Assembly (NCBI RefSeq): GCF_004346685.1
Contig: NZ_SMCO01000001.1
Span: 496,001-560,000 of the forward strand
Reading direction: 5' to 3'
DNA from: Sulfurirhabdus autotrophica
GTDB taxonomy: Bacteria; Pseudomonadota; Gammaproteobacteria; Burkholderiales; SMCO01
DNA: 64,000 bases
Of this stretch, positions 4,094-40,187 are shown piece by piece. The translations under genes and the position numbers were made by a program. The notes beneath the pieces are model-generated. The model was not told the origin of the DNA. It did no database searches and was given only the letters and a program-made list of their open reading frames with translations. The first letter of the stretch is position 1. Each line of letters starts with the position of its first letter.

Positions 4094-5017
4094 TTATTGA
4101 AATAGTTCTTCCTGATGAACCACAGCAGTTCCCAGTTTGCCAACCACAATACTTGCTGCACGGTTTGCCATATGCATGGCTTCCGGCAATTCCTCACCTG
4201 CCGCCAGCATCACACCAAGGGTTGCAATAACCGTATCCCCTGCACCGCTCACATCGAACACTTCCAGCGCATGAGCTGGCTGATGCAAGGTATCCCCTTC
4301 GCGATACAATGTCATCCCCTCTTCACTTCTGGTAACCAAAAGCGCCTGAAGGTTCAACTCAGTACGGAGTTGCTGTGCCTTACGTGTCAGTTCTTCTTCA
4401 TTTTTCCAGCTGCCTGCTACTTCCTTGAATTCACCTCGATTAGGTGTCAGCAGCGTCGCATTGCGATAGCGCACATAATCATCCCCTTTGGGGTCAACCA
4501 GCACAGGTTTTCCAGCCTGATTAGCCATCTCGATCATCTGTGCGATATGGGTCAAGCCACCCTTGCCATAATCAGACAGAATTACCACATCGTACTCAGG
4601 CAACATACGACGAAAATCTTCCTGCGCTGATAACAAAACTTCATGGCTCGGTTGCGTTTCAAAATCAATGCGGAGCAATTGCTGCTGACGCCCGATCACT
4701 CGTAATTTAATCGTGGTGGAAATACTTTCATCCTGATGCAAAACTGACGTAATACCCTCTTCCCGCAACATGCGGTCCAGACAATCTCCTGCCTCATCTT
4801 TACCCGTTACGGAAATCAAGGCTGCCTGAGCACCTAAGGCCACAATATTTCGCGCTACGTTAGCGGCGCCACCTAAGCGCTCTTCACGCCGATCAATTTT
4901 TACGACTGGTACGGGTGCTTCGGGTGAAATCCGGCTGACATCACCAAACCAGTACCGGTCCAGCATGACATCACCGACCACCAGCACCCGTGCATTTTTC
5001 AATTGCGCAATATTCAA
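4094..5017 (-). CDS. hldA: D-glycero-beta-D-manno-heptose-7-phosphate kinase (single-domain)
   Basis: This PfkB-family sugar kinase has 307 residues, so it holds only the kinase half of the E. coli bifunctional HldE (477 residues). The separate adenylyltransferase (HldC/RfaE2) is not in the window. Visible motifs are GDVMLDRYWFGDVSRISPEAPVP near the N terminus, GGAANVARN (about 49-57) and the C-terminal PfkB signature DVSGAGDTV at about 255-263, with the catalytic Asp in GAGD. It phosphorylates heptose-7-P at O-1 for LPS core synthesis. It starts 13 nt after ugd ends, so the two are co-transcribed. Often annotated rfaE1. Confidence 0.94.
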   Translation of the reverse strand: MNIAQLKNARVLVVGDVMLDRYWFGDVSRISPEAPVPVVKIDRREERLGGAANVARNIVALGAQAALISVTGKDEAGDCLDRMLREEGITSVLHQDESISTTIKLRVIGRQQQLLRIDFETQPSHEVLLSAQEDFRRMLPEYDVVILSDYGKGGLTHIAQMIEMANQAGKPVLVDPKGDDYVRYRNATLLTPNRGEFKEVAGSWKNEEELTRKAQQLRTELNLQALLVTRSEEGMTLYREGDTLHQPAHALEVFDVSGAGDTVIATLGVMLAAGEELPEAMHMANRAASIVVGKLGTAVVHQEELFQ

Positions 5018-30532: not shown

Positions 30533-30897
30533 GGGGGCGACCAGGTTTCGACGTGGGTTGCAAAGCAACGTAGGGCATACCGAGGACCAGCTACCTCGTA
30601 AATACAACTGGAAAAAAAATAGTCGCAAACGACGAAAACTACTCCTTAGCCGCTTAATACCGGCTGAGCTCTGCACCGGAACTCTCATGGGCCGGGTCAG
30701 GCAACTGACTGCAGAGTCATCTACATGAGATCGCGCTGATTCGGGTTACTTGGATCAGGGCTAAATTTAGGTAACTCGCTTGAATCCAGCCTGTTCGATT
30801 GGCGTGATTCGGGTTAAAACCAAATAATCGGACTAAGTATGTAGAACTGCCTGTAGAGGGCTTGCGGACGGGGGTTCGATTCCCCCCGCCTCCACCA
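30533..30897 (+). other. ssrA: Transfer-messenger RNA (tmRNA)
   Basis: This is a complete one-piece tmRNA of 365 nt. The 5' GGGGGCGACCAGGTTTCGAC pairs with the 3' CGCCTCC before ACCA, giving the 7-bp acceptor stem with a G-U third pair. GGGGGTTCGATTCCCCCC forms the T arm. The tag reading frame is at 30625-30657 (resume codon GCA), encoding ANDENYSLAA and TAA. It rescues stalled ribosomes and tags proteins for proteolysis. The 3' end serves as attachment site for the element to the right. Confidence 0.97.
30875..30890 (+). repeat. attL core (ssrA 3' end)
   Basis: The 16-bp core TTCGATTCCCCCCGCC inside the tmRNA T arm and acceptor strand is repeated exactly at 40100-40115. The gene is restored by the element's own copy of the 3' end. 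Confidence 0.9.
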
Positions 30898-30966: not shown

Positions 30967-31021
30967 CATCCTATAGCGTCCAACCAGCACTATTGCAATC
31001 CAACGGTAAATGGCGGTATAT

Positions 31022-31060
31022 TTGACGGTAATCACCTTACCGTCAACACGAGTTACCGTC
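31022..31060 (+). promoter_or_regulatory. Inverted repeat and half-site directly before the integrase start
   Basis: TTGACGGTAA and TTACCGTCAA form a 10-bp inverted repeat with 5-nt spacer at 31022-31046, and a further TTACCGTC at 31053-31060 touches the ATG. Related GCGGTAA units occur at 31005-31017 and near attR (40026-40047). It is likely an operator of int or an integrase/excisionase arm site. Confidence 0.65.
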
Positions 31061-32275
31061 ATGCCACTTACCGACACAGCAATTCGCAATACCAAACCTA
31101 CAGAAAAGCCCATCAAGCTAACGGATGGTGGCGGGTTATACCTGCTACTCAATCCAAATGGCTCCCGCTGGTGGCGGCTTGATTATCGTTATGGAGGAAA
31201 ACGCAAAACCATTTCGATGGGGATTTATCCAGACGTAAGCCTAAAAGATGCACGTGAAAGGCGAGATGAGGCCCGCAAGTTATTAGCCTCGGATGTTGAC
31301 CCTGGCGAAAATCGAAAAGCGGTTAAAGCAGCTAAGGTTGCTGGAAATACCAATAGTTTCGAGATTGTTACACGTGAGTGGTTTAGCAAGTACTCATCAA
31401 CATGGAATGAGAGTCACGGCGACCGGATCATTAGACGATTCGAGCGTGATATTTTCCCCTGGATTGGTGGCAAACCCATTGCAGATATCACTGCTCCTGA
31501 GTTACTAGCAACAATTCGAAAAATTGAAAGTAGAGGGGCACTTGAAACTGCGCACCGTGCGTTAGGTAACTGTGGTCAAGTATTCCGCTATGCAATTGCA
31601 ACTGGACGTGCTACTAGGGACTATTCCACCGATTTAAAAGGTGCCCTTCCACCTGTTAAAAGTGAGCATTTCGCGGCAATTACCGAACCCAAGCAAGTTG
31701 GCGAACTACTACGGGCAATGGATGGCTATACAGGCTCTCAGATTGTGCGACATGCCCTACTACTGGCTCCGTTAGTATTCGTTCGCCCTGGTGAGCTTCG
31801 CAAGGCAGAATGGGCAGATATAGACCTGGATGCAGCTGAGTGGCGTTTCATCGTAACTAAAACGAATACTCCTCATATTGTTCCCCTTTCGCGGCAAGCG
31901 ATTGAAATACTCTCTGAAATGCAAGCCCTTACCGGTGACGGGCGCTATGTTTTCCCCGGTGCACGATCGCGTAACCGACCAATGAGCGACAACGCAATCC
32001 TTGCAGCTATGAGGCGCATGGGTATCGAGAAGGACGAAATGAGCGGGCACGGCTTCCGAGCAATGGCGAGAACGATTCTTGATGAAGTGCTAGGTTTCCG
32101 TCCAGACCACATAGAGCATCAATTAGCACATGCTGTACGAGATCCCAATGGACGCGCATATAACCGAACTGCCCACTTACCCGAACGCAGAAAAATGATG
32201 CAGGAATGGGCGGATTATTTGGATAAGCTAAAAACCGGTGCTGAAATTATCCCTATTAACAATAACGCTGCATAA
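31061..32275 (+). CDS. int: P4-type site-specific tyrosine integrase
   Basis: This 404-residue recombinase has an N-terminal DUF4102-like arm domain (MPLTDTAIRNTKPTEKP and LTDGGGLYLLLNPNGSRWWRLDYRYGGKRKT in two parts), a central SAM-like domain and the C-terminal catalytic domain with Arg in RPGELRKAEW, HxxR in GHGFRAMART, His in HQLAHAV and the nucleophile Tyr in AYNRTAHLPERRKMMQ. ATG 31061 is used, because the frame from 31010 would run through the inverted repeat. Its position next to ssrA and the matching repeat at 40100 indicate that it integrates the element at the tmRNA 3' end. Confidence 0.95.
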   Translation: MPLTDTAIRNTKPTEKPIKLTDGGGLYLLLNPNGSRWWRLDYRYGGKRKTISMGIYPDVSLKDARERRDEARKLLASDVDPGENRKAVKAAKVAGNTNSFEIVTREWFSKYSSTWNESHGDRIIRRFERDIFPWIGGKPIADITAPELLATIRKIESRGALETAHRALGNCGQVFRYAIATGRATRDYSTDLKGALPPVKSEHFAAITEPKQVGELLRAMDGYTGSQIVRHALLLAPLVFVRPGELRKAEWADIDLDAAEWRFIVTKTNTPHIVPLSRQAIEILSEMQALTGDGRYVFPGARSRNRPMSDNAILAAMRRMGIEKDEMSGHGFRAMARTILDEVLGFRPDHIEHQLAHAVRDPNGRAYNRTAHLPERRKMMQEWADYLDKLKTGAEIIPINNNAA

Positions 32276-32894: not shown

Positions 32895-33038
32895 TACCTG
32901 CACCCATTCCATGCCAGCACTGACGTGGATTTTGCGGTCATAGCCAGCAGATTACCTCAACTAGTTGAATCTATTCCATAGCCCGTTTGAGGTATTAAAT
33001 CCGTAACCATGTTCAACAACACCCAAAGGGGTACAAAC

Positions 33039-33299
33039 ATGGTTCAAACAATCCTAAGACTCCCTGCTGTTAAGGCAGAAACTGGCGCTTCGCGTTCAAC
33101 AATCTATCTCCGCATCCAACAAGGGCTTTGGCCTAAACCTGTCAGACTTGGGCCTCGGTCCGTAGGCTGGCCCACCAGTGAGGTTGCCGCCATTAATGCA
33201 GCACGAATTTCTGGGTTACCTGATGATGAAATCCGCGCCTTGGTAATTAAGTTGGAAGCCACACGCAAAAACGCTTCCAAAGCGTTTCAAGGGGAATAA
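33039..33299 (+). CDS. AlpA-family transcriptional regulator
   Basis: This 86-residue helix-turn-helix protein of the AlpA/excisionase-like family has LRLPAVKAETGASRSTIYLRIQQGLWP, then KPVRLGPRSVGWPTSEVAAI, the conserved winged-helix pattern. ATG 33039 with AAAGGGG upstream is preferred over 33009. In P4-like elements AlpA turns on int or acts in excision. It ends 1 nt before the DUF927 gene, so both are one transcript. Confidence 0.88.
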   Translation: MVQTILRLPAVKAETGASRSTIYLRIQQGLWPKPVRLGPRSVGWPTSEVAAINAARISGLPDDEIRALVIKLEATRKNASKAFQGE

Positions 33300-33300
33300 C

Positions 33301-35073
33301 ATGAAAAACACCAATACCGCACAAATCACTTCTCTCACATCACGACAAAATTTATCGCCCCTTTCTGCCACCTCGTGCAAGTATGGCAGCGGCAGATTTG
33401 AAATTTCTGAAACTGGCGTACATTATCTTTGTAAAGACAAAGAAGGCAATGAGCAACCTCCAAAATGGATTTGCTCACTACTTCATATAACCGCTATGAC
33501 GCGGGATGAAAAAAACGGCGAATGGGGGCGGCTTTTGGAATGGCATGATGATGACGGCAAAAAACATCAATGGGCCATGCCTCTTGAAATGTTGGAAGGA
33601 GATGGCTCAGAAGTAAGACGTGAGCTTGCCAGATTAGGCATGCGCATAGCCCCTAATCAAATTGAACGCGGTTTGCTATTAGCTTACATAAAGGTATGGC
33701 CAGTAGAAGCTAGAGCACGTTGTGTAGAGAGACTTGGTTGGTATGGCAACATCTACGTTACACCATTTGGGCAAATTGGGGGCGATGGAGAAATTACCGT
33801 ATTCCAGAATACTCAAGCTATTGAACCAGCTTTTTCTGAATCAGGAACTGCGGACGAATGGCGTAATTCAGTGGCAATTCTAGCTACTGGCAATTCTCGA
33901 CTTGTTTTCGCCATCTCTACAGCCTTCGCAGGCCCGTTGGCTGACATTACGAGAGATGATTCAGGAGGTTTTCATTTTCGTGGCGCTTCGTCAACTGGAA
34001 AATCTACAGCCTTGAAGCTAGCGGCCTCTGTTTGGGGCAATCCTTCTACCTATGTGCGCCTATGGCGTAGCACGGTCAACGGGCTAGAAGGACTGGCAAC
34101 ACTCCACAATGACGGATTACTGATTCTGGATGAAATCAGTCAGATTGACCCAAGCGCAGCGGGTGATGCTGCTTATTTACTAGCGAATGGTCAAGGCAAG
34201 GCTCGGGCAACACGCAAAGGGATTGCGCGACCTCCTCAAAGATGGCGACTACTATTCCTTAGCGCGGGCGAAGAATCCCTATCTGCCATCATGGTACGCG
34301 CAGGAAAACAAACCAGCGCTGGGCAGGAAATCAGGCTTGCCGACATTGAAGCAGATGCAGGAGCAAGAATGGGTATATTTGAAGAGTTGCACAACCACGC
34401 AAATGCATCATCCTTAGCATCAGCAATCAAAGATGCGATAGCAAAATTTCATGGCACAATTGGATATGAATGGTTAAAAATTATGGCAGAAATTCGTGTT
34501 GAACTTGCAGACTACATAAACAACGCCATAAATAAATTTGTGGCAGAAATAATCCCGGCAGGAGCAGCTGGGCAAGTAGTACGAGTAGCCAGGCGATTTG
34601 CGCTGGTTGCCGCGGCAGGGGAACTTGCGACAAGTTATGGATTAACCGGCTGGCCAGAAGGTGAAGCTACCCAAGCAGCACGCAAATGCTTTGCCGCTTG
34701 GCTAGAGGCCTTTGGAGGTAGTGGCAACCGCGAAGAACGCATCATACTCGACCAGACACGTGCCTTTTTCGAGACGCATGGTGCAAGCAAATTTGAATAC
34801 CTGAAAGCTACTGATGATCAGCGCATCCATAACCGCGCGGGTTTCTTCCGTTCCAATGAAAATGGCGATCACGAATATCTGGTTTTACCTGAAGCTTTTC
34901 GCCGGGAAATTTGCCAAGGCTATGATGTAAAGACGGTCAAGAACACTTTGAAAAAGGCAGGTATGTTGCTACCTGCAAAAGATGGCAAACCGACACAAAA
35001 TATCAGATTGCCAGGATTGGGCTCACCAAGAGTTTATGTCATGCGGTACATAGGACAGGATAATGAGGCGTAG
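33301..35073 (+). CDS. DUF927 domain-containing replication/helicase-like protein
   Basis: This 590-residue protein contains a DUF927 core (about 40-330) with Walker A GASSTGKSTALKLAASVWG (about 226), a Walker B-like LLILDEISQ (about 275) and a sensor-like RWRLLFLSAGE. DUF927 proteins occur in integrative elements and phages and are thought to be primase-helicase-type replication proteins. No zinc finger or TOPRIM domain is visible N-terminally. It is followed directly by an origin-like repeat region, which supports a replication role (inference). Confidence 0.85.
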   Translation: MKNTNTAQITSLTSRQNLSPLSATSCKYGSGRFEISETGVHYLCKDKEGNEQPPKWICSLLHITAMTRDEKNGEWGRLLEWHDDDGKKHQWAMPLEMLEGDGSEVRRELARLGMRIAPNQIERGLLLAYIKVWPVEARARCVERLGWYGNIYVTPFGQIGGDGEITVFQNTQAIEPAFSESGTADEWRNSVAILATGNSRLVFAISTAFAGPLADITRDDSGGFHFRGASSTGKSTALKLAASVWGNPSTYVRLWRSTVNGLEGLATLHNDGLLILDEISQIDPSAAGDAAYLLANGQGKARATRKGIARPPQRWRLLFLSAGEESLSAIMVRAGKQTSAGQEIRLADIEADAGARMGIFEELHNHANASSLASAIKDAIAKFHGTIGYEWLKIMAEIRVELADYINNAINKFVAEIIPAGAAGQVVRVARRFALVAAAGELATSYGLTGWPEGEATQAARKCFAAWLEAFGGSGNREERIILDQTRAFFETHGASKFEYLKATDDQRIHNRAGFFRSNENGDHEYLVLPEAFRREICQGYDVKTVKNTLKKAGMLLPAKDGKPTQNIRLPGLGSPRVYVMRYIGQDNEA

Positions 35074-35579
35074 CTGCGCAAAACAAGGTAACAGCGGTAA
35101 CATCCAAAGTGGGCGTAACTCGCAACGTTACCTGTAATGTTACCGGCTAGGCAATCCCGGTAACACGTCACAGCGCGATTATTGACTGCTACTGTTACGG
35201 TGCCGTATATATACATATATACATATATGTTACATAACATTATAGGCGTGTAACTATAGGTGACCCTATCTTTAAGGACGGTTGTCCAATAGACACTCTC
35301 CTATTGGGCACCTCCCTATTAGAGAGCAATCCCAAACATAACGTACCGTTATAGGCAGGTTACCATTGCGGCCCTATCTTAGGGACGGCACCAATAGCCA
35401 CCACCCCATTGGACACCCCCTATGCTGCCATCCATATAGCACCAAAGCGGCATCGCAATAGCCCCCCTAATAGACCCCTCCCCATAGAACATAATCCGAA
35501 AGCGTAAGCCAATTCTATTACCGTCATTACCGGGCAAACCCTATGCCGGTAATGCTTTGCGGTAACGCGAAACACCGTA
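35074..35579. other. Non-coding, repeat-rich region, candidate replication origin of the element
   Basis: There are no credible genes over about 500 bp. The region holds many GGTAAC/GTTACC or GGTAA/TTACC units in both orientations (35086-35165, 35360-35370, 35518-35570), an AT-only stretch of alternating TA at 35205-35243, and two imperfect copies of a CCTATCTTnAGGGACGG...CCAATAG block (35264-35295 and 35373-35400). Short CCAATAG/CTATTGG palindromes recur. Iteron-like repeats plus an AT-rich tract next to a helicase gene are what one expects from an origin. Confidence 0.5.
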
Positions 35580-35840
35580 TCAATCAAACCATTCCGGGCA
35601 GTCGCGCTGACTGTTACCGCTATTACCGATTAAAGCATAACTGCCATCGAATATTCCATATCGCATCGCATCCGCTACAGCTTCTTCCGATGAATTGGAC
35701 AGCACGATATGCAAATTGTTTTCGACTCGCGCGTGTGCATGAAAGAATTTTCCCAAGGTGAGGAAATACTCCTCCCAGAGAGAATCGGGAATGCATGTTC
35801 TAAAGTCTCGGTTCGCGTCAGGATCTTCAGGCACCCTCAT
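35580..35840 (-). pseudogene. Short hypothetical frame, probably truncated gene
   Basis: It starts at ATG 35840 and has 86 residues. The first 65 (PDSLWEEYFLTLGKFFHAHARVENNLHIVL) look like an authentic helical protein. The last 20 fall into the GTTACC repeat region and look out of character, so the gene seems cut off at about 35640. It follows the HNH-like gene ending at 35932 on the same strand, with a 91-nt gap, like the spacing of the other genes in this group. No function assigned. Confidence 0.4.
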
Positions 35841-35931
35841 AAGATGATCTGATGAGTCGTGAAGGCGCCGCCAAACCTGTTAATGAGGCATAACGACGAG
35901 TAAGAACGCGGCTTTAAATTTAGTGGCATAT

Positions 35932-36771
35932 TTAAGTAGGTGGTCGTAAATGATCTGATAGTTTAGTTAATAATGGGCTATTAGATAGTAGGTTGGCCGA
36001 GTTGTCATCGATTGTGTTTTCTGAGTCAGCGAAATTATTAAACTGCCCTTTGGATATTAAAGACAATTTGAAATAATCACAAAATTCTTGATATTGCTCT
36101 AGGATCGAGGCGAATAAATTGTCTTCGACGCAACTAAAGGTGTTAAATATAACCTTGCCAATAGCAAATGTGGTGCACTGAGAGTTAGCCTGCAATTCGC
36201 AGCCTTGAGAGTCGAATTTAATAGTTCTGTCACGTGAATCTGGAATGTGCAACGCTAAATGATTGAATACGCCTACCCACTTTTGACCACTATATCTGCC
36301 TAATGAAACAAGCCAATTGTTGGGCAGAGCGCCAGAGTTCATAAATTGATCTCGTTGATTCTGTGGAGTAACAATAGTTAATCTATCTTTGAATTCTGCA
36401 ATCATCGTAAACATCGTTGCCCAACGTGAAAGCAAGTTCATTTCACCAGGTGTTAAAGATAAAAACTCCCCTGTGATTAATGGAATAAGAATTGGTTTAG
36501 TTTCTTCTTGTAGAAAAGCCATCCATTCATTGTTACAAGTGCTACAAACAATTCTCAGCTTTTGTGAATGAGGGTCTCCTGGGCGTAAAGTTTCTCGGAT
36601 AGGATAATGTGGATATTCTTCGGCTGCTGCATCAAAGCGGGAGATGCTAGCCTGATGTATCCTTTCTGAAAAATTACGTGGAACATATCTTTTCAACCAG
36701 TCTGCCCATAGATGTTCTTTACTATTAGCTGGATCTCCACAAAAAATGCATCTTTTCTTTATTTGTCGCAT
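35932..36771 (-). CDS. HNH-type zinc-finger protein (predicted nuclease-like), cargo 1
   Basis: This protein is 279 residues long from ATG 36771. The N-terminal KRCIFCGDPANSKEHLWADWL and later CSTCNNEWM give the CxxC...EHxxxxW...CxxCN pattern of HNH_5-like domains: zinc ribbon with a His in the EH motif. The remaining 200 residues are unfamiliar. It may be an endonuclease, possibly in phage defence, but I see no characterised homologue. It lies 76 nt after the neighbouring HNH-like gene on the same strand, with an attC-like site between. Codon use is more AT-rich than the core genes. Confidence 0.7.
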   Translation of the reverse strand: MRQIKKRCIFCGDPANSKEHLWADWLKRYVPRNFSERIHQASISRFDAAAEEYPHYPIRETLRPGDPHSQKLRIVCSTCNNEWMAFLQEETKPILIPLITGEFLSLTPGEMNLLSRWATMFTMIAEFKDRLTIVTPQNQRDQFMNSGALPNNWLVSLGRYSGQKWVGVFNHLALHIPDSRDRTIKFDSQGCELQANSQCTTFAIGKVIFNTFSCVEDNLFASILEQYQEFCDYFKLSLISKGQFNNFADSENTIDDNSANLLSNSPLLTKLSDHLRPPT

Positions 36772-36786
36772 AGTTATGTTTGAGAG

Positions 36787-36851
36787 TTCTAACTCAGAGT
36801 TCAGGGGTGCGCAGCACATAGGCGGAGCGTCCGTTGGAACGATTCGTTAGC
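36787..36851 (-). repeat. Candidate integron attC recombination site
   Basis: On the minus strand GCTAAC (overlapping the stop codon of the upstream HNH-like gene), five bases, then GTTC at the left end mirror GAAC, five bases, GTTAG at the right end, with a central self-complementary part (CGGAnnnTCCG and GTGCnnnGCAC). This R-L...L-R layout with 65-bp length is that of integron attC sites. The last bases after GTTAG deviate from the GTTRRRY consensus. Confidence 0.55.
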
Positions 36852-37647
36852 ACGCATTTATTGAACGCCCAACGGCTATCCGGTAAATTGGAGCTCCTAG
36901 ATTAGAAAAGAGTTGGACGTCGCATAAAATATGCTGAATTCCAAGAATATCTTCTTTGAAGACACGGCAGCGATGAATCACGTTCCATGGAGTCATTTCC
37001 CCGATAACGCCAGTTCCACCTATGTACGTTGAGACAGGAACCGGTTTCCCGTAGATGACGTCAAGAAGTAGGGGTTGGTATGAACCATGACCAAGCTCTG
37101 CAGCAGCATAAGCATGCGCTATCTTAGCCAAGAGTGCATATAGTGCCAAGTAGTCTATCTTTGAATCATGTGCAAACGATCCGCTGCCGAGCAAAGATAT
37201 ACGCCTTTCATAATCTTGTTGAAATTTGATCGCTACAGCTCGCACGTGGGTCGTCTCGGATGCATCTTTACCACCCAAATAGGTGCATGGCTCAAGATCG
37301 ACAGTAGTAAATCGATAGGGATGGTCTTTAACGGGAAGTGAAAATTGAATTTCTCCACTCTTGGATACTTCAGTAATTACGAGTGCCTCTGGTCGCCTCT
37401 TCTTTCTGCGAGTTGACAATTCAAGGTGAGTACGAATTTCAGAAAAGAAACCTCTTGAGCATCGGGCTTCAATCTTCGACGTTATGTCAGCACATGAAGC
37501 ACAACTGGCATCCTGGATAACCCAGTTTCCACTCAAGGAATATGGGATGATGTGCTCGCGTGAGCGCGGCATTGCTGCATCACCGCAATAGATACACGCC
37601 CCTGGACTAGGAAAGGAGAGACCATTGCTGCTTCCTGTATATATCAT
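36847..37647 (-). CDS. HNH-type zinc-finger protein (predicted nuclease-like), cargo 2
   Basis: This protein has 266 residues. The N-terminal ACIYCGDAAMPRSREHIIPYSL then CASCADITSKIE is a clear HNH_5-type pattern (CxxC, EHIIP, CxxC). The rest includes STRRKKRRPEALVI and a C-terminal region rich in beta strands, with no other motif known to me. The stop codon lies in the attC-like site at 36787-36851 and GTTAGC at 37660-37665 precedes the start, as in integron gene cassettes. Its function is unknown; nuclease activity is inferred from the fold only. Confidence 0.7.
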   Translation of the reverse strand: MIYTGSSNGLSFPSPGACIYCGDAAMPRSREHIIPYSLSGNWVIQDASCASCADITSKIEARCSRGFFSEIRTHLELSTRRKKRRPEALVITEVSKSGEIQFSLPVKDHPYRFTTVDLEPCTYLGGKDASETTHVRAVAIKFQQDYERRISLLGSGSFAHDSKIDYLALYALLAKIAHAYAAAELGHGSYQPLLLDVIYGKPVPVSTYIGGTGVIGEMTPWNVIHRCRVFKEDILGIQHILCDVQLFSNLGAPIYRIAVGRSINAC

Positions 37648-37843
37648 TGCTTCATGTGAGCTAACAGTTATTAACCAGACCGGCCGATCAGTACTACTAA
37701 AATTGTCAGAACATGCCCGTTCTTGGTAGCTATTTGATTCATTGTGGTTGCCCTAAGACTGTCTATCCATATATGTCATAATAATACAAACAGGTGATCG
37801 AGTGACTGCTTTGGGGAAAATATTCGATGGTCCGTTCCTGTCA

Positions 37844-38101
37844 TATTCTGTTGAAAAACTCTTTTTCTGAGGGGCGCTAAAAACATGCCAAATGCTGTTA
37901 CTCTCAAAAAATGCAATCAACTTCCCGTGATGGGGAAGAATTAAGCACTCTGCAACGAACGATCATGTTCCACATGATCCCGGGTGTTGACGCCAGTTTA
38001 ATACTGATTAGATAAACCCGGGTACGTCCTTCGTGAGAAAATCGATCTAAGTGGCTAGAATTTTTTCAAGTCGCCTGAAAAAAGAGTTTTTCAACAGAAT
38101 A
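37844..38101. mobile_element. MITE-like element or IS remnant with 24-25-bp terminal inverted repeats
   Basis: TATTCTGTTGAAAAACTCTT at 37844 is mirrored at 38077-38101, differing over about 24 bp by a single T in a homopolymer. The ends are flanked by GTCA at 37840-37843 and 38102-38105, a likely 4-bp target duplication. The 258-bp interior encodes no transposase. Similar ends occur in several DDE-type insertion sequences; I do not assign a family. Confidence 0.75.
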
Positions 38102-38105
38102 GTCA

Positions 38106-38234
38106 CGTTGCTGACCGATACCACTGCATCCCAACCACCGTCGGCTAACTGGAAAGGCGTGCTGACGCTATCGACACTTATGCGACCTTCGAGCCAAAAG
38201 TAAGCAGATCGTCAGAATCAACCCGACAAACAAA
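38106..38234. other. Spacer between MITE-like element and PEP-CTERM gene
   Basis: There is no gene. A short stretch (38110-38200) looks compositionally like degraded coding sequence but shows no recognisable protein. Confidence 0.35.
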
Positions 38235-38258
38235 AACAGCGACCAAAAGGCCGCCGTT
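38235..38258 (-). terminator. Terminator of the PEP-CTERM pair
   Basis: On the minus strand AACGGCGGCC and GGTCGCTGTT pair around TTTT (10 bp with G-T pairs), followed by TTTGTTTG. It resembles the terminator at 1875-1904. Confidence 0.8.
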
Positions 38259-38278
38259 ATCGTAAACAATGAAGTCTA

Positions 38279-38986
38279 TTAAGTTGCTTTGCGTCGAGCT
38301 ACTCTGATTAATCCAATGAGGCCAGAACCAAACAGCCATGCAGTGGCAGGAACTGGGACTTCAGTAGTGCGAACCAAATACTGTGGGTATGGATCATTCA
38401 AGCCTAGCGTCCACGCTCCTCCAATTGTTCCATCCTGTCCAGGCACCCATGCACCTCCTATGCCTAAAGGAATATCGTATCCCACCTCTGCAATAGCTTT
38501 TGCTTCAAGCGATCCTTCTTGGAAAGTCCAGCTATCTTCACCTTGACCAGTTGTAGCTAGCCAACGACTCTTATCAACAATCCCAACTGCCATTACCCTT
38601 CTGTTTGCCACAGCCGTATAAAAAGAAGCCACATCACCCAACATGCTTATAAATTGATTAAGATTCATAATGTCACTACTGGTAAGATTAGTCTGTCCAC
38701 TGTGATAAAGGCTGCCCAGTCCCGCGTTAAAAATTAATGTATAAACCTCATCAGCAGTCGCATGGCGAAAGCCCTGATTAAGCCATCCACCAACACCAGA
38801 ATTTACTTGGTTATAAGATAAATTTACGGTTTGTGTAAGGTCTAGCCATTCCAGCCCTGTAACAGAGTCAGCGGTAATTAGATGATCTCCAGGCTGATAT
38901 AGGTCTTCTTCCAGAATGGCTGCTTGTGCCGCGCCGCCAGAAATAAGCACAGCACATATGGCAAGGGATGTGGTTAGGATCTTCAT
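38279..38986 (-). CDS. PEP-CTERM sorting domain-containing protein
   Basis: This 235-residue secreted protein has the signal peptide MKILTTSLAICAVLISGGAAQA. It contains TGLEWLDLTQTVNLSYNQV, a segment frequent in PEP-CTERM proteins of unknown function. The C-terminal signal is VPVPATAWLFGSGLIGLI followed by RVARRKAT. It overlaps the preceding PEP-CTERM gene by 4 nt (ATGA), so both are one transcript. An exosortase would cleave it during export; none is in the window. Confidence 0.88.
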   Translation of the reverse strand: MKILTTSLAICAVLISGGAAQAAILEEDLYQPGDHLITADSVTGLEWLDLTQTVNLSYNQVNSGVGGWLNQGFRHATADEVYTLIFNAGLGSLYHSGQTNLTSSDIMNLNQFISMLGDVASFYTAVANRRVMAVGIVDKSRWLATTGQGEDSWTFQEGSLEAKAIAEVGYDIPLGIGGAWVPGQDGTIGGAWTLGLNDPYPQYLVRTTEVPVPATAWLFGSGLIGLIRVARRKAT

Positions 38987-39798
38987 GCTGAATTACTTTT
39001 ACGTTTAGCTATTCCAATCAACCCCAGCAGGCCAGAACCAAACAGCCATGCCGCCGCAGGTACCGGGGCGGCGGCAACATCGCCGGGGCGAACTGCCATG
39101 GCGTACAAATAAGAGCCTTTATATTCGAAGCCTTGACTGCCACCGGAGAAGAGGAATTCAAACGCGTTTGGACTGGGATAAAGTAGCGAATCAGACGGCA
39201 AATGAACGTCTTGACTAGACCAGTAGAACCACGATTGGATATTTTTGAACGGGCCGGTATTGGTAAGACCATATCCTGCTTGTGGCACACAAGATGTGGT
39301 GGTTGATGTTACAGGATTGCAGGAACTTATATTGCCCAGCTCACCGTAGTATAGGTGCGCCATCTCGCTAGCCGTGCTCCCTGCGTACAGAGTACCAGGT
39401 GCGCTGATGTTTGAACCAAAGTCCGTGTTGCCTATCTGACTATTGTTGTAATCGAATGCTGTGCCGTTCACGGGGCTGTTGGTGGGCAAGCGCCAGTCAT
39501 TGTAGCCTAGGTAGTTGGCGGTATTCATGGCAGCAATCCATTTGTTGGCGGTAGACAAATTCATGGTGCCAGTTTGGTTAATGCTATTCGGCTCATAGTA
39601 TGCCCCGCTCTCAGCGCTATTCATTGTCATAGGCAAACCAAAGGTATTTGTCGCCGCCAAGTTAGCATCAGCCAACCAAGTAATATTCAGGTCGTTGTCA
39701 TACACCGCCATCCCACCTAAACGTGACTCAAGGGCAGCATTTGCAGATGTAGACAGCAGGCAGGCAACAACCAGCAGCAGAATGTTGCGTTTATTCAT
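38983..39798 (-). CDS. DUF1566-like PEP-CTERM sorting domain-containing protein
   Basis: This 271-residue secreted protein has a signal peptide ending STSANA. The middle holds WIAAMNTANYLGYNDWRLPT, FYWSSQD and YAMAVRPGD, the Lcl/DUF1566 pattern found in many bacterial surface proteins. The C-terminal VPAAAWLFGSGLLGLIGIAKRK is the PEP-CTERM signal. It is the first gene of a two-gene operon at the right end of the ssrA element, reading away from attR. A role in exopolymer or surface structure is only family-level inference. Confidence 0.88.
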   Translation of the reverse strand: MNKRNILLLVVACLLSTSANAALESRLGGMAVYDNDLNITWLADANLAATNTFGLPMTMNSAESGAYYEPNSINQTGTMNLSTANKWIAAMNTANYLGYNDWRLPTNSPVNGTAFDYNNSQIGNTDFGSNISAPGTLYAGSTASEMAHLYYGELGNISSCNPVTSTTTSCVPQAGYGLTNTGPFKNIQSWFYWSSQDVHLPSDSLLYPSPNAFEFLFSGGSQGFEYKGSYLYAMAVRPGDVAAAPVPAAAWLFGSGLLGLIGIAKRKSNSA

Positions 39799-40099: not shown

Positions 40100-40115
40100 T
40101 TCGATTCCCCCCGCC
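40100..40115 (+). repeat. attR core
   Basis: An exact 16-bp copy of the ssrA 3' segment (30875-30890), followed by CCACCA with one T missing relative to tmRNA. It marks the right end of the integrated element. Confidence 0.88.
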
Positions 40116-40187
40116 CCACCAAAAACCAAAACAAAAGGCCACCCCTGCGGTGGCCTTTTGTTTTGGTTTTTGGTGGAGGTTGAACTG
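40116..40187 (+). terminator. Displaced ssrA terminator: perfect 28-bp inverted repeat
   Basis: CCACCAAAAACCAAAACAAA at 40116 begins a 28-base arm ending GGCCACC. A 5-nt loop (CCTGC) follows, then the exact reverse complement to about 40176, then AGG. The GGCCACC/GGTGGCC core with TTTTGTTTT behind it is a classical intrinsic terminator. It starts at the CCA end of the former tmRNA gene and was moved 9.2 kb by the insertion. Confidence 0.85.

Follow-up and report, generated by a model that had tools for sequence, protein, structure and literature searches.

Can a gene cassette still be recognised as part of an integron where no integrase lies beside it? The question is raised by a stretch of 64,000 nucleotides of the Sulfurirhabdus autotrophica genome (contig NZ_SMCO01000001.1, positions 496,001 to 560,000; hereafter the window, in whose coordinates positions are given unless a contig or locus is named), in which an attC-like site separates two genes, HNH1 and HNH2. 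We propose that this locus is very probably an integron unit without an integrase, made up of attI, HNH1, attC and HNH2, which is carried in a tmRNA-inserted island and has an attI of an integrase lineage that we name IntI-B. The attC is identified directly and the attI by homology and position, the order and orientation are those of attI, gene and attC, and no intI was detected alongside.

The original prediction rested on mirrored boxes between the two genes, and these are present on the minus strand at 36852–36787 (TGCTAAC-GAATC-GTTC...GAAC-TCTGA-GTTAGAA). As it also described, the site overlaps the end of HNH1 (36847–37647, minus strand), the stop codon of which (TAA, 36849–36847) lies within the first box, TGCTAAC; at the other side, 12 bases separate the end of the site from the ATG of HNH2 at 36774. 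The ‘self-complementary centre’ attributed to the site proved weak, because box scoring and plain folding went against it. A first box finder, which was too strict, missed both this site and the genome’s own attC sites. A second finder recovered real arrays and did not separate the window site from chance palindromes: the site scored 11, and other palindromes in the window scored 12, 11.5 and 11. Minimum-energy folding gave other structures instead of an attC cruciform on either strand (z scores of −1.3 and −0.7), and the site did not fold by itself into an attC hairpin with extrahelical bases. An Rfam search of 30–44 kb of the window returned no attC-type match (matches under the gathering score were disregarded). 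As folding and crude box scoring failed to single out the site, we built a covariance model of attC, here R1.

A search of 274 genomes of the class placed integron integrases in 103 of them, and stretches of 12 kb beside 20 of these integrases were requested, some of which were shorter where contigs ended. A finder proposed 65 candidate attC sites, and R1 was built on an alignment of 35 of them (58–75 bases in length; 15 loci, 13 genomes). The 30 that were excluded comprise the sites of the window’s own genome, none of which entered the training set, most sites of more than 75 bases and a few doubtful ones. The expected attC stem is strongly supported in this alignment, with 90.1% of cells paired and a covariation score of 0.448 compared with 0.124 in shuffles. 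When applied to the integron that is resident in the genome, R1 gave three matches at sites outside the training set, of 54.1, 48.8 and 33.0 bits. Of 15 control genomes without an intI match at 1e-80, 5 yielded matches that reached 31.5 bits, 16 in all; these may be real CALINs.

R1 reported the site at 36852–36787 as its sole match in the 64-kb window at E values of up to 10 (31.5 bits, E = 1e-5), and with filters off across 35000–38500 the next best score was 8.4 bits. As the match is the only one in the window, the resemblance to attC goes beyond chance. Across the whole genome, with 150 of 430 candidates scored, R1 gave at least 13 matches at E values of up to 10, at least 10 of these below 0.004, and the window site ranked ninth among the 13. 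Both the R and L boxes with their spacers and the cruciform, as captured by the covariance model, are present, with several stem positions unpaired in the alignment to R1. The site is an attC despite its degenerate stem, and a covariance-model check of the kind that had been proposed, run here with R1, came out in its favour.

HNH1 encodes a protein of 266 amino acids, an HNH_5-type nuclease by its Pfam match (E = 2.1e-6, 28 bits with a cut-off of 27.5), and HNH_5 is also matched by 23 of 25 aligned members of its family. Its predicted structure is confident (pLDDT of 88.9); a Foldseek search with this model found no PDB match at E values of up to 0.001, and a profile search gave HNH-domain matches only (best E = 0.011). 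HNH2 (35932–36774, minus strand; 280 amino acids) is weakly HNH-like, matching HNH_5 at E = 0.07 only, and PADLOC matched neither protein. HNH1 may act as a nuclease, perhaps in defence. With an attI core before it and an attC directly after it, HNH1 is, judging from this arrangement, a gene cassette. Behind HNH2, no attC of its own was found by R1 in 35000–38500, and HNH2 is probably a second cassette, the attC of which has since been lost.

Single-sequence searches with HNH1 and HNH2 across 369 genomes of the class returned matches in their own genome only, and the same kind of search found no relative of HNH1 in genome_contigs or viral_contigs. A plasmid search produced four HNH1 relatives at 27–29% identity and 12 records with HNH2 matches, none of which covered 80% of HNH2. 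An alignment-based search uncovered 47 loci with HNH1 relatives, and in 3 of these R1 places an attC no more than 150 bases upstream of the relative: in Curvibacter (L100, 35.7 bits), in Methylococcaceae (L097, 32.7 bits) and, weakly, in a third locus (L109, 20.8 bits, E = 0.035). At the density of R1 matches seen, around 0.05 attC would be expected by chance within 200 bases upstream of 47 genes. Behind the HNH1 relative of L097 there is also an attC-type hairpin of around 120 bases (4784–4911; z score of −4.5, 0 of 200 shuffles), which was overlooked by R1, a model trained on short sites. Because relatives follow an attC in L100, in L097 and weakly in L109, HNH1-type genes are genuine cassettes, and cassette-borne homologues of HNH1, of the kind that the original prediction called for, do exist.

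The half-box GTTAGC that had been noticed in front of HNH1 (37665–37660, minus strand) is real and is more than a half-box: it is the core, with a presumed crossover at G^TT, of an attI region of around 130 bases (37661–37788, minus strand) that heads the HNH1 cassette and is supported by blastn and a leader profile. By blastn (E = 4.9e-27), this leader is 79.7% identical over 128 bases, ending at the core, to the intI–attI junction of L180, a complete integron from a different genome of the order, and the L180 copy is the nearest to it among 27 other copies (74% of 148 aligned columns). A divergent intI starts around 100 bases away from the leader both in L180 and in a second homologous locus, L186; the L180 leader is followed by five attC that share its strand. 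The window leader is, by homology and position, an attI.

Within its own genome, the leader resembles the sequence before the first cassette of contig C4 (score of 63; 2 of 1,000 dinucleotide shuffles scored as high), and a 21-base pattern drawn from these two leaders has 8 matches in the genome compared with 1 for the reversed pattern. A profile of four other own-genome copies, with the window excluded, recovered the window at 33.1 bits (E = 1.6e-9; next best, E = 0.79). With the core columns removed, the window was still the best match and in register, but at E = 0.006, and outside the core its leader bears only a weak resemblance to the other own-genome copies. Part of this profile result is circular, because the 21-base pattern had picked the copies. 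A promoter scan found 6 sites, compared with 5.3 expected, and was given no weight. HNH1 is possibly transcribed from the attI region as well. Just upstream of the attI region, at 37844–38101, perfect 23-base inverted repeats (TATTCTGTTGAAAAACTCTTTTT) stand 212 bases apart; they are MITE-like and have no notable open reading frame between them.

The absence of an integron integrase, as originally reported, holds for the window and not for the genome. All TIGR02249 integrase matches of the genome fall outside the window, a tblastn search of the window (E values of up to 1) gave no remnant of IntI-B, and the window does not contain a complete integron with intI in cis. A complete integrase (477.7 bits) of another lineage is encoded at C1:245368–246306, 286 kb from the window attC. 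It belongs to the resident integron (L010, G000:C1:246000–248700), which comprises intI, attI and three attC, followed by a transposase, and has among its cassette genes one for a small membrane protein and another whose SIR2-like product matches candidate defence models (PDC-S25, E = 3.9e-19). The intergenic attI of this integron shows no similarity to the window leader beyond shuffles (score of 27); the window attI is therefore of another type. With the resident integrase, the two found at leaders share 47.0% and 48.6% identity and the others that were compared 58.9–74.4%, which points to two integrase lineages, here named IntI-A (resident) and IntI-B (at leaders). Further attC-bounded genes lie on C4, C5 and C38, and Pfam matches among the open reading frames there include a WapI-like immunity protein, a GNAT acetyltransferase, an LCM methyltransferase and a GFA-family enzyme. 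At another site (L084, G000:C1:55000–56300), the resident attI is repeated together with no more than the opening codons of intI, and a cassette and an attC come next; from its layout, this is the relic of an integron that lost its integrase within the gene.

How widely such leaders are dispersed was estimated by running a leader model (R2) over 200 genomes of the order; its counts are lower bounds, because few candidates per genome were scored (16) and filters were stricter. At E values of up to 0.1, a leader match is present in at least 37 of the 200 genomes. At 40 bits or more there are at least 31 attI copies in 15 genomes: 6 in the window’s genome, which match by construction as training copies of R2, and 25 in 14 others, with up to five copies in one genome. 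Only two of the 31 were found beside intI (L180 and L186), among the 22 of 25 outside copies (20 regions) that were retrieved; for the remaining three, the genomes have their intI 40 kb from the leader, on another contig or not at all. Of the 37 genomes with a leader match, 16 were searched for intI; 12 of these have intact intI genes, all but the two at leaders being located elsewhere. In the 20 leader regions, each of the 22 R1 matches (E values of up to 1; 15 of them reaching 25 bits) is on the leader strand, downstream of the leader. They fall in 11 regions, in 8 of which they reach 25 bits, and R1 had no match in the other 9.

Three of the own-genome copies (on C5, C12 and C19) are near contig ends in an assembly of 59 contigs, and the one at C19:60476–60602 ends 84 bases from the contig end, which places its upstream side beyond judgement. 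Solo leaders are also present in G546, a genome that consists of a single contig, and missing contigs are therefore not the general reason for them. Two loci, L184 (6001–7105) and L189 (5539–7124), have two attI-type leaders in a row, in the order leader–gene–leader; in L189, an attC-like sequence, absent from the R1 matches, can be seen between both leaders.

GTT at the core is retained in 25 of 28 aligned leader copies; 3 copies are without the core, and the copy on C25 has lost internal sequence. The window leader contains AATCAAATAGCTA (37727–37739, minus strand), which agrees, with one mismatch, at 12 of 13 positions with WATCAANNNNTTR, a motif that we take to be the consensus for integration host factor (IHF). 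The exact motif occurs in 16 of the 28 copies—which are related, so that these counts are not independent—at 88–94 bases from the end of the compared stretch (0.6% in shuffles), and the match in the window is at the same place. Because the four free bases of the motif vary among copies while the specified bases stay, selection on this putative IHF-like site is suggested. The literature that we searched contained no paper treating attI, integron and IHF together.

The carrier, described at first only as a non-integron element, can be specified as an island that is inserted at the tmRNA gene and has its own phage-type integrase. The tmRNA gene (30533–30897, plus strand; Rfam E = 2.9e-97) holds one island end in its 3′ end (30875–30897, plus strand), and an exact 16-base repeat of this end, followed by CCACCA minus one base, marks the second island end at 40100–40121 (plus strand). 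Beside the tmRNA lies the gene for a phage/P4-type tyrosine recombinase (31010–32275, plus strand; Phage_int_M, Arm-DNA-bind_3 and Phage_integrase), followed by those for an AlpA-type regulator (33009–33299, plus strand; Pfam Phage_AlpA, E = 3.3e-14) and a DUF927 protein (33301–35073, plus strand; E = 3.3e-96). The HNH unit stands between both repeats and is therefore part of the 9.2-kb island. Two adjacent open reading frames of 235 and 271 amino acids (38279–39798, minus strand), located between the attI region and the second island end, have tails that are presumably PEP-CTERM-like. A strong hairpin beside the far end (40104–40184) gave sub-threshold microRNA matches in Rfam only.

The locus was originally read as a possible cluster of cassettes lacking an integrase. 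HNH1 is such a cassette, with no intI alongside, but the unit is headed by an attI and has no attC behind HNH2; since GTTAGC is the core of a full attI, it is an integron that lacks its integrase and not just a cluster of cassettes. It might still be argued that the attC resembles one by chance and that the HNH genes form a plain operon, given that other palindromes in the window score as high or higher by crude box scoring; the covariance match, the stop codon within the site, the attI upstream and the cassette-borne relatives make this vanishingly improbable. The resident integrase could instead have inserted the HNH1 cassette at an ordinary genomic site (attG) and not at an attI. A complete integrase of a different lineage and scattered attC sites are indeed present in the genome, and cassette insertion at attG sites has reportedly been published, by Loot et al. 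in 2024. We nevertheless hold this to be very unlikely, as the 128 bases upstream of HNH1 are homologous to an attI beside intI in another genome and further copies of the leader head other cassettes. Fragmentation of the assembly, with leader copies near the ends of C5, C12 and C19, also leaves room for a complete integron, the intI of which the draft alone has failed to capture. The window copy is deep in an 884-kb contig, between both island ends, and solo leaders occur in the one-contig G546, all of which renders a gap in the draft an extremely unlikely cause.

Harder to settle is what the unit does now. We give about an even chance to an inert relic, in which the integrase would be lost, the attC decayed, the HNH genes transcribed like ordinary island genes and the other attI copies relics too. 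The degenerate attC stem and the lack of an attC behind HNH2 fit such decay, as do the 3 leader copies without a core and the internal loss in C25, and CALINs are attributed to loss or translocation of the integrase in the accessible text of PMC11389934. Weighing on the other side are the GTT core in 25 of 28 copies, the exact IHF-like motif in 16 of 28 with varying free bases, and the presence of several copies each in several genomes. A bolder idea is a distributed integron, in which genomes of the order would have several attI sites away from any integrase, each with its own cassette and with a conserved IHF-like motif, that are served in trans, some of them being taken to new hosts by islands together with their cassettes. 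We regard this as tentative and rather doubtful, and it is with the same reserve that we suggest that the serving integrase might sit elsewhere in the genome or arrive with another element. The sequence fits either a live docking site or a relic, and integrase action on the attI and attC is putative.

The integrase-less integron unit that we favour would derive either from an integron that lost its IntI-B gene or from movement of an attI unit; other genomes of the order retain the IntI-B lineage in complete form. The HNH1 cassette might still be excised or exchanged by an integrase supplied in trans, and the island, not the integron, would move the unit between cells.

Integrase-less cassettes are usually described by their attC alone. 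Here the attI is recognised too, because its homologues adjoin intI in two related genomes, and scattered orphan cassettes become units equipped with a docking site and perhaps a promoter, of which a genome can hold several and one is island-borne. Should the sites be active, a single integrase might supply cassettes to many positions across a genome. The leader model also provides a means to find such units where attC models fail. Single attC sites without an integrase (CALIN/SALIN) were known already; what is new is a dispersed, integrase-less attI with a conserved IHF-like motif, and the unusual part is that integrase-less copies of the same docking site recur in related genomes. The literature searched, with subscription papers mostly outside it, does not use the terms ‘orphan attI’ or ‘multiple attI sites’, which is no proof of absence.

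Among known systems, CALINs and SALINs are similar to the window unit in having an attC-bounded cassette with no intI nearby. In their accessible portions, PMC9024848 reports that single attC sites can be genuine and gives two attC as the default of IntegronFinder 2 for a CALIN, PMC9229058 describes SALINs scattered in Shewanella genomes, and PMC11389934 has CALINs arising through loss or translocation of the integrase. The window has only one attC and is therefore a SALIN-type element rather than a strict CALIN (at least two attC and no integrase). Unlike either, its cassette is headed by a full attI that is dispersed in many copies, and attI has no part in the definition of a CALIN. The sedentary chromosomal integron L180, with intI, attI and five attC, shares the same attI, the order attI–cassette–attC and the orientation, whereas the window unit is without an integrase gene, has one attC and is island-borne. 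The Delta-attI-type cassettes of class 1 and 2 integrons, as far as the accessible text of PMC12901181 describes them, likewise have attI-derived sequence away from the integrase, and the attI2 core AATAAAATGTTRRRY given there resembles TAATAACTGTTAGC of the window; in those cassettes a piece of attI replaces the attC behind the gene, whereas in the window a complete attI precedes the gene. Cassettes inserted at attG are also outside an integron, but the upstream junction in the window is a homologous attI and not an arbitrary site. The attC sites and integrons of phage genomes, in the part of PMC9892861 that is accessible, resemble the window in that cassettes ride on another mobile element, which in the window is instead a tmRNA-inserted island with a P4-type integrase.
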